Assembly: GCF_024713945.1 (NCBI RefSeq)
Contig: NC_134679.1
Location: forward strand, 3,291,001 to 3,355,000
Length of the DNA: 64,000 bases
Direction: 5' to 3'
From: Dermatophagoides farinae
Lineage: Eukaryota; Arthropoda; Arachnida; Sarcoptiformes; Pyroglyphidae
Shown: positions 15,601 through 18,377 of the stretch, in pieces
Numbering within the stretch: the stretch's first letter is position 1
How the letters are laid out: each line of letters opens with the position of its first letter
The notes under the pieces: model-generated
Databases searched by the model: none
The model's input: the letters and a program-made list of their open reading frames with translations, nothing else
What the model was told of the DNA's origin: nothing
Program-made: the position numbers and the translations under genes

Positions 15601-18377
15601 ACGTCGATCGCCGTGATTCTTCACTGTTCACGTGCTTGGCCACCAATAATTTCGGCAAGGATGAATACAACTTTCAACTGATAGTCCAAGGTAACTTTGA
15701 CTAGAATCTAGATTCTAGAATAACCTTCAATTATTATGATTCAATTTTAGAACCACCTGGAAAGCCGGAAAACGTGCACGTGTTGGAACTAGACAGTCGG
15801 TCTGCTGTTATTGCTTGGTCCCAGCCATATTCTGGAAACAGCCCGGTCATTGCATTTCATGCAGAGTATCGCCAATGGTTGGAAACATTGCCTCCATGGC
15901 ATCATTTGGATGCAACAGCCGAACTACAGCAGCAGATTATAAACGAACAAAATGGTAAACTACACCAGCCATCATCGAAGCCGCCAGGTACAATATTCCG
16001 TCAAACTTTGGTGGGAACAGAATCGTCAATCAGTCTTCGTTCTCTCAAGCCAATGACCACCTATGAAGTTCGAATTCAAGCCGAAAACAAATTGGGTTTT
16101 GGTCCATTTCAGATGCCACCACTTAAGATCACAACTAAAGAAGAAGGTTAGGAAACACTAATTCGTTATTGGGATATGCTGATGATTTTTTGCTTTTTCT
16201 AGCACCATCTGGTCCTCCGTTAAACATTCATGTGTATCCATCAAGTGCACATTCGCTACAGGTGACATTCCAACCGCCTCGGGTTGATCATCAAAATGGT
16301 CAGATTCTGGGCTACTATGTCGGCTACAAAGCGGTCGATCTGGATGAACACTTCATGTTTAAGAAAGTTGTTGAGGAAAAATCCTTACAGCCTTCGACTC
16401 AAAGCAAAGAGGTGAAGATTACTGATCTTCGTCGCGCGACAAAGTATTTGGTCATCGTCCAGGCTTTCAATAGGTTCGAATTTCAATGATTTTTGGTTTA
16501 AAACTCATGCTTCATCGTTTCAGAATCGGCCCTGGACCACAATCGGAGGAGATCATCGGTGAGACTCTTGTGAACGATCCGCCGCGAGCACCAATTTTGA
16601 CATCGGTCAACGTCAACTACGATTCAGTTGAGCTTAGCTGGTCGATCGAAACAACCGACGATTCGTACGCTGCAGAGCAGCAAACATCCAACTCGAACGT
16701 ACCAGAAATCACCGGTTACTTCCTGTATGCAAAGTCTTCCCAATCTGGAGAGTGGGAAGAGCGACAAGTTGATTCGCAACAGAATTCATACACGTTCACG
16801 AATCTATTGTGTGGCACACAATATCAGTTCTATGTTATTGCCTACAATAACGTAGGTAAAGGCGATCCTAGTCAGGCGATTGCTGTTAGAACCAAAGGAT
16901 CTGGTAAGTTTTGCAAAAGTGGCTCAAATATTGACGATTTTTTCCAGTACCGATAGCGCCTAAAAATTGGAATTCTTTCATTACGGTCAACTCAACCGTA
17001 GCAATGATTCGTCTGGATGCCTGGCTCGTGAACGGATGTGAGATCAAATACTTTGTGCTCAAGTATCGACCGAGAATCGATTCCGATTGGCTTGTCGATT
17101 CATCGAAAATCTCACCTCGAGAACAACGTTTCGTTGAATTAGTGGATTTGCGACCAGCAACATGGTATCTGCTTAACATGGCTGCTTTGACAGACATGGG
17201 GACCACTGAGGAAACCTACATGTTCGCTACATTGACCATGAATGGTGAAACGATTCCACCAATAGAAACTATTTCACGCACATTAAAATCGGCCAATTCT
17301 ATATCGGCATCTTCGGGCTCTATGGACCCAGGCGGTGGAGCGAATACGCTTAGTTCAATGCAATCATTGACCATTGTCATACCGGCAACTTGTTCTGTGA
17401 TAGTTCTCACTGTGATAATTCTAGTCGCCTGTTTTGTTTTGGGCACCAAACGTTCTTCTCAACAATTTGAAAGTACAATTCTTACAGCCATTGGTGCACG
17501 AAACGGTAGTAACAATTCTCATCATCATACGAGTCTTAATGGAACGCCTTCTCATATTCATGCCCATATTTCTGATCAATTATCCACAACATATTGTCCA
17601 ACGCCGGCAACCGGTGATTTAAGTAATGAGCCACGTTATAGTACCGGATTATTGAACAACAATCTTGACCATTATGGTTTCTGTACTGGGAATAACGGAA
17701 ACAATAATGTAAACAATGAGATTGCATCAGCTAAATGTATGATTAATGGAACGCCAACGATGCTGGCTACTAATAATTCAACTAATTCAATTGAAATGAT
17801 ACATTCAGCTACATTGGGCTATGCAACTTTGAAAAAACAACGTTCCAATCTGCAAACAATGAAATCAATGCTAGATTCAGATATTAAAAATTTTGATCTA
17901 TCCATACCATTGTCATTGGCAGATAATTCTACAACAACATCTACGGCAACAACTATGGCCACATCAACAACAACATGCCTGGATTCGAAACTTTGTGATA
18001 TGAATAAAATATCAGATTCCTCTAATTTATTGACGGTACAAGCAACATTATGCGGTAATAATTCTAACGAAACTAACGATACAAATAATACGGTTCATTA
18101 CTTTCAAACACCATATGCTCTATCACATTTGCCTAATAACAGCAACAACAATAACAATAATGACCAATGTATCAATAAATGTAACACCGTGAATAATAAT
18201 AATGCTAATACTGACATGGGAAATGATCAAATATCTGAACTATCATGTCTAAATGCTGCATACACTGCCAATAACGCCTATACTTTACAACCAAATACAA
18301 AAAATCATCAACATCATCATAGTGATAATCATCATAGCCATGTATATGATTTGCCATTTCCACCAAAATGGGTTTGA
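609..18377 (+). CDS. Dscam: Dscam-family cell adhesion receptor (9 Ig + 4 FNIII + TM), 5'-partial
   Basis: Homophilic adhesion/axon-guidance receptor of the Dscam family. Exons read by eye: 609-814, 898-1119, 11509-11570, 11666-11789, 12749-13006, 13059-13795, 13855-14150, 14201-14862, 14919-15278, 15328-15690, 15751-16145, 16203-16473, 16524-16903, 16948-18377; every junction is GT-AG and keeps frame (about 1920 codons). Ig1 (from GPEFLVEPPS) lies in the first two exons, Ig2 in the next three (RCHIPSF... and FRCQTKH), Ig3-Ig4 in 13059-13915, Ig5-Ig7 in 13916-14862, Ig8 and Ig9 in one exon each, FNIII domains in 15751-17240. The last two FNIII match canonical FN5 (NLLCGTQYQFY) and FN6 (GCEIKYFVLKY, LRPATWYLL). 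Membrane helix about 17365-17440; the tail is Asn/Ser/Thr/His-rich and ends YDLPFPPKWV. The signal peptide exon was not found. I saw no duplicated alternative exons. Family assignment is firm; the paralogue is not settled. Confidence 0.93.
3509..3533. repeat. (ATA/AAC)-rich simple repeat tract
   Basis: Run of imperfect AAC/AAT trinucleotides inside the large Dscam intron, opposite an (ATT)n run. Representative of many similar tracts in the intron. Confidence 0.5.
4052..4091. repeat. (TG)n dinucleotide repeat
   Basis: About twenty uninterrupted TG units in the large Dscam intron, one of several TG/CA tracts in the window. Confidence 0.9.
7320..7516. repeat. Direct tandem duplication, period 97 bp
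   Basis: Two copies of a unit that begins ttcttgt(t)tggttaag and ends cacataaagaa lie back to back; the aagtttcgat mark is at 7341 and again at 7438, giving a 97-bp period. The copies are almost identical, with a one-base length difference in the T/G stretch. The second copy runs straight into the long AG repeat. Confidence 0.9.
7517..7662. repeat. (AG)73 uninterrupted microsatellite
   Basis: 146 bases of perfect AG repeat following the second copy of a 97-bp duplication. It lies in the large Dscam intron. It is the longest perfect microsatellite in the window and likely to vary in length between individuals. Confidence 0.97.
11790..12748 (+). other. Dscam intron between the two halves of Ig2
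   Basis: AT-rich intron of 959 bases with CA repeats at about 11912-11936 and 12380-12402. No alternative exon was recognised. Confidence 0.75.

Follow-up and report, generated by a model that had tools for sequence, protein, structure and literature searches.

A probable middle-type Dscam (mDscam) gene and its inverted paralogue in Dermatophagoides farinae

A gene at 609-18377 on the forward strand of the window (the whole stretch of 64,000 nucleotides that was analysed, positions 3,291,001 to 3,355,000 of contig NC_134679.1 of Dermatophagoides farinae) very probably encodes a "middle" Dscam (mDscam) of the chelicerate type. Its product would be a membrane receptor in which Ig1-9 are followed by FN1, FN2, FN5 and FN6, and is a probable recognition and adhesion molecule. 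The original prediction of a Dscam ectodomain without FN3, FN4 and Ig10 was borne out, the order of the domains being supported by reference scores, a domain tree and most of the AU tests. It had also mentioned reports of shortened Dscam paralogues in chelicerates, and this exact deletion has indeed been published as the mDscam class, defined in the available sections of Cao 2018 (PMC5775551) by the lack of Ig10 and FNIII 3-4. The loss of FN3-FN4-Ig10 is already known, and our finding is one more mite genome in the class.

Gene model and domain order

Fourteen exons splice into a single open frame of 1921 aa with GT-AG boundaries at all 13 introns, and the protein has Ig1-9 and four FNIII domains, followed by a hydrophobic segment and then the tail. 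The model begins at the acceptor at 609, and the signal-peptide exon lies outside it. The first four introns measure 83, 10389, 95 and 959 bases and the last nine 44-60 bases, so the introns of 44-60 bases described previously were correct for the last nine of the 13. Exons 609-814 and 898-1119 (609..1119, +) encode the N-terminal linker and Ig1, as read from the spliced frame, and the first 184 residues of the query, which span Ig1 and run into Ig2, aligned with residues 7-182 of the Dscam entry 4xb7 in a PDB search. Ig2 occupies the next three exons, 11509-11570, 11666-11789 and 12749-13006 (11509..13006, +); these gave no passing match with the Ig profile, and the domain was recognised from the frame and from its match to Dscam N-terminal structures. 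Five further exons (13059..15690, +) carry Ig3 to Ig9 by spliced frame and Ig profile matches. The top PDB match of Ig1-9 was 3dmk (E 4.4e-152), which covers the first eight Ig domains of Dscam, followed by N-terminal Dscam structures of about 390-400 residues; the gene has counterparts of all nine Ig domains of the Dscam N-terminal part. Within the 10.4 kb intron no Ig profile match below E 1 was found that could represent 5' tandem variable cassettes.

The FNIII region begins with exon 11 (15751..16146, +), which encodes FN1 (FN profile E 1.9e-25), and continues with exon 12 (16203..16473, +), which encodes most of FN2 (best reference human DSCAM FN2, 68.9 bits). Exon 13 (16524..16903, +) holds the end of FN2 and, by frame and FN profile, a domain whose top reference is FN5 (39.0 bits), the two joining near 16579. 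Exon 14 (16948..18377, +) contains FN6, identified by PF25059, and then a linker, the hydrophobic membrane segment, the cytoplasmic tail and the stop, all read from the translation; the hydrophobic run and the tail of about 300 residues were likewise taken from the translated frame and not from a predictor. We scanned frames of at least 20 aa on both strands of the window with FN and Ig profiles built from Dscam domains of the same mite genome. FN matches fell at 15750-16139, 16202-16474, 16579-16896 and 16947-17240 (the second is FN2, the last part of which is encoded by exon 13), and no Ig10 was found, the top Ig match past 15689 on either strand of the window having E 0.83, in agreement with the earlier statement that no Ig domain lies among the FNIII domains.

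Elsewhere in the window, directly downstream of the Dscam gene, tandem genes whose DNA is 73-77% alike lie at 18604-26098 (-), and we take them, by motif, to be UDP-glycosyltransferase-like. Frames at 44552-47685 and 52288-52659 (-) are presumably metabotropic glutamate receptor-like, and an inverted repeat of 483 bases (97.5%) is formed by 56295-56777 and 57180-57662.

Identity of the four FNIII domains

By sequence comparison, the order of the FNIII domains is best read as FN1, FN2, FN5, FN6. The last domain is FN6 as judged by both profile and tree. PF25059 (FN3_DSCAM-DSCAML_C; Pfam cut-off 39), whose Pfam name marks it as specific to Dscam although fragments of long FN3-rich frames in this genome pass its cut-off too, scored it at 91.5 bits, compared with 93.3 bits for the human DSCAML1 FN6 reference; the DSCAML1 FN4 reference had no match to this family at E 0.01, and the other three FN domains of the window gene reached 22.5-26.7 bits, under the cut-off. 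Of the 11 FN domains in the human DSCAM and DSCAML1 references, a single one was verified, DSCAML1 FN2, which agrees with 1va9 at every residue of the domain. Against these references the fourth domain was closest to FN6 (49.4 bits), the first was closest to DSCAM FN1, narrowly (23.3 vs 23.0 bits for DSCAML1 FN3), and the order 1-2-5-6 was recovered in all five mDscam-type loci compared; in the sole sDscam-type first domain compared, FN5 scored slightly over FN1 (32.7 vs 32.0).

The domain tree took seven of the 13 loci described below, five mDscam-type (window included) and two sDscam-type; the inverted copy, L019, L021/L022, L023, L024 and L026 stood outside it, as did a truncated copy in L014 that is not among the 13. 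FN6 rows formed one group (100/99) with the last domain of the window gene inside, the domain of exon 11 fell in the FN1 group (90/88), and a branch of 90/92 split the FN1-4 rows from the remainder. In the best tree FN5 did not form one group, human FN5 standing beside FN6 (75/63, weak) and apart from the mite domains. For the third domain FN5 is the best reading: it was the top reference in 7/7 loci (five mDscam-type, two sDscam-type), and holding the third domains with FN5 fitted the data (p 0.491) in the AU test, in support of the original assignment.

A PDB search with the FN region gave as its top match 7Y8S (sDscam FNIII1-3, 138.4 bits), followed by PTPRF, a LAR-type phosphatase (110.4), the shorter sDscam entry 7Y6E (93.8), and then titin and contactins; with sDscam first and PTPRF second, other IgSF families were rejected for the window gene. 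FNIII1-3 of sDscam are given as FN1, 2 and 5 of Dscam1 in the part of PMC10154414 available to us.

Two readings would undo this order. The first, that the last two domains are FN3 and FN4 and the protein end (Ig10, FN5, FN6) was lost, has in its favour that grouping the third domains with FN4 alone was not rejected (p-AU 0.112), but grouping them with FN3 (p-AU 0.007) or with FN3+FN4 (0.034) was rejected, and this reading must further set aside both the nearness of the third domain to FN5 at every locus compared and the placement of the last domain with FN6 rather than FN3/FN4, which was the outcome of the tree check originally proposed; we give it hardly any credence. The other reading, that Ig10, FN3 and FN4 are present and were missed in extra exons or another isoform, could draw on the two large introns upstream (10389 and 959 bases), but it is nearly refuted and its probability is minimal. 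The best matches in the window beyond the gene's own domains had E 0.05 (FN) and E 0.83 (Ig), and the introns nearest the FN2/FN5 join measure 56, 50 and 44 bases. The join is not at the introns named originally (16145-16203 and 16473-16524); it lies within exon 13, and therefore FN3-FN4-Ig10 cannot be supplied by a cassette exon at that point, which strengthens the argument that there is no room for missing exons. FN1, FN2, FN5, FN6 remains our preferred order. At two other loci, L024 and L026, the end of FN2 and FN5 were read by eye in different frames, so that an intron lies between them there.

The inverted paralogue and the Dscam set of the genome

A second mDscam is located on the opposite strand of the same contig, about 82 kb off. 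The two genes have in common a tract of about 4.3 kb from Ig3 to the membrane segment (window 13132..17437, +, vs C3:3390599-3394908, -, L012) with 98.6% identity, in which 62 differences were counted, introns included (41/3882 exon bases and 21/424 intron bases). The ends of the tract are sharp, one within the Ig3 exon and the other within the membrane-segment codons; outside it the Ig1-2 exons show 83-89% identity and no other stretch of more than 60 bases matches, and the inverted copy has no intron between Ig2 and Ig3. Between the paralogues pS was 0.44 in Ig1-2, 0.040 (0.0398) in Ig3-FN6 and 0.62 in the alignable tail, and pN was 0.087, 0.0057 and 0.446, respectively. The shared tract has a pN/pS of about 0.14, and the coding sequence of the window gene is under purifying selection. 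The sharp ends, the low synonymous and intron divergence and the diverged flanks suggest that the tract is probably a recent ectopic gene conversion; we claim no novelty for gene conversion in Dscam as such.

Similar stretches were seen at other loci. L014 (C3:6725001-6735000) holds a truncated copy of 2.5 kb that starts within Ig6 and stops within FN5; it is 98.7% identical to the complete mDscam at C3:6.77 Mb (L015), which lies some 39 kb away, and no FN6 match was found in the fragment. The sDscam-like loci L018 and L019 on C1 form an inverted pair with bounded high-identity stretches (1.6 kb with 94.3% identity and 4.4 kb with 96.9%).

A search of the whole genome (62,435,336 bases, 22 contigs) with PF25059 yielded 107 matches. 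The curated cut-off of this family was passed by ten Dscam-like loci, namely the window gene, the inverted copy at C3:3390775, C3:6771948, C8:3134469, C8:2546803, C4:3828960, C3:2366570, C9:267660, C3:3166976, and C7:4783627-4783953, the last only together with its frame neighbours. Six more places above the cut-off belong to FN3-rich frames (1875-3247 residues, on C9 and C7) and were not counted as Dscam; the long FN3-rich frames on C9 may be titin-like. In none of the ten loci was an Ig found between FN domains (Ig profile, E 0.02; an Ig split over short exons might escape detection); the layout of L021/L022, L024 and L026 was read partly by eye.

Three further loci, L017 (C1:3966001-3976000), L018 (C1:8206001-8216000) and L019 (C1:8130001-8140000), carry tandem single-Ig units, at least 10, 12 and 11, respectively, followed by an Ig and three FN domains. 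The counts are lower bounds from regions of 10 kb, with leader exons and membrane segments outside their scope. Of these 33 tandem units 28 were nearest Ig7 (one L017 unit was unscored and one L019 unit runs across two frames), and the layout appears like that of published sDscam-alpha. Outside the Dscam set, the genome has seven places of the Der p 2 family; the one that was read resembles Der p 2 and Der f 2 (E 1.6e-30 and 2.7e-30), in keeping with an astigmatan mite.

Canonical Dscam was not found, which does not prove its absence: in this assembly, some stretches of which read as N, no Dscam-like place among the candidates scored had Ig10 beside FN5 and FN6. The queries were human DSCAML1 FN3-FN4-Ig10-FN5-FN6, with 88 of 132 candidates scored, and human DSCAM FN4-Ig10-FN5-FN6, with 107 of 156. 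Their top matches fell in the long FN3-rich C9 frames, the Ig-FN matches placed at Dscam loci were Ig9-FN1, and none of the other Ig-FN places (e.g. C3:515595, C4:1658718-1660367, C9:1108837, C10:2531083) exceeded the PF25059 cut-off.

These surroundings bear on two more alternatives. The near-identical inverted copy on the same contig might suggest that a pseudogene or a fault of the assembly accounts for the window gene, but the frame is open over 1921 aa, its tract shows the low pN/pS given above, and the copy differs from it in Ig1-2, in the layout of introns and in the tail, so that two loci exist; this explanation is exceedingly improbable. A separate, mite-only loss from a canonical Dscam, distinct from the old chelicerate mDscam loss, would fit the failure to detect canonical Dscam in the genome and is somewhat less remote, though we consider it improbable. 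Against it, the same layout occurs in 10/10 Dscam-like loci over the PF25059 cut-off, the FN1-FN2-FN5 run is found in the sDscam-like loci too, and the mDscam class is said in the available text of PMC5775551 to predate the arachnid-horseshoe crab split. We therefore retain the mDscam reading, in which the window gene would descend from an mDscam of the chelicerate ancestor.

Relation to known Dscam classes and possible function

The 2016 survey of Yue reportedly took in Tetranychus urticae, an acariform mite. Genes without FNIII3-4 and Ig10 are described there in every chelicerate investigated (Yue 2016, PMC4835542, as far as its text was available), and the six species named in the accessible part of PMC5775551 are a horseshoe crab, two spiders, a scorpion, a tick and a predatory mite, with no acariform. 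Dscam gene numbers are given as 4 in Metaseiulus and 14 in Tetranychus (PMC4833078), 19 in N. cucumeris (PMC6902594) and about 40 in D. tinctorium (PMC6275457), in the available portions of these papers. The accessible portions of the open-access literature on Dscam in Dermatophagoides and Acariformes contained no Dscam architecture of an astigmatan mite, and those of PMC3364881 nothing on the loss of FN3-FN4-Ig10.

As in the mDscams outlined in Cao 2018 (PMC5775551, available sections), the window gene keeps Ig1-9, lacks FNIII 3-4 and Ig10, has FN5-6 before the membrane and belongs to many paralogues; FN2 leads directly into FN5, and no 5' cassettes were seen in its 10.4 kb intron. The present case differs from that account in a mite genome in which no canonical Dscam was detected and in one pair with a probably converted tract. 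With canonical Dscam (Drosophila Dscam1, human DSCAM) it shares the order of Ig1-9, FN1, FN2, FN5, FN6 and a probable single membrane segment, whereas the FN3, FN4 and Ig10 that canonical Dscam has between FN2 and FN5 are absent, and so is the Ig10 between FN4 and FN5 that marks LDscam. The FN1-FN2-FN5 run is shared with sDscam-alpha (PMC4835542; structures in PMC10154414; both as available in part), of which the mite genome has three such loci; however, in sDscam Ig1-6 and FN6 are missing and Ig7 cassettes are repeated in tandem at the 5' end, whereas the window gene has both Ig1-6 and FN6 and shows no cassettes.

We propose that an ancestor of the window gene lost FN3-FN4-Ig10, so that FN2 ran straight into FN5. 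The N-terminal Ig part, which in insect Dscam1 makes homophilic contacts through Ig2, Ig3 and Ig7 (as cited in the available text of PMC10154414), is retained on a shorter stalk, with four domains past Ig9 instead of seven, and the tail would serve signalling. By analogy, the protein is most likely a cell-surface recognition and adhesion molecule. It may bind homophilically, and a neural or haemocyte role is conceivable; in the scorpion, expression is highest in the cephalothorax for 14 of 17 mDscams and in haemocytes for mDscam8 (PMC5775551, available sections). Of 11 residues of the sDscam cis dimer and kink, five are kept (L358, P395, E486, L492, D578) and six are changed, including N357 to S, Y420 to H and Q485 to E, which matter by mutation in sDscam. 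Since key interface residues are changed, an sDscam-type cis dimer is not predicted and was not adopted as a mechanism for the window protein.

Further, we lean slightly towards a combined view, in which the mite entirely lacks a canonical Dscam with Ig10 (10 FN6-bearing mDscam-type and three cassette-bearing sDscam-like loci, with FN3-FN4-Ig10 dispensable for the whole animal) and gene conversion keeps the two inverted mDscams near-identical from Ig3 to the membrane as Ig1-2 and the tails drift apart, so that one receptor body carries two different heads and tails. The pair with the probably converted tract provides a natural experiment on the importance of Ig1-2 and the tail. If canonical Dscam is truly missing, a nervous system could be built without the Ig10-bearing form, and the 10 FN6-bearing loci would offer a compact set in which to study the role of FN3-FN4-Ig10.
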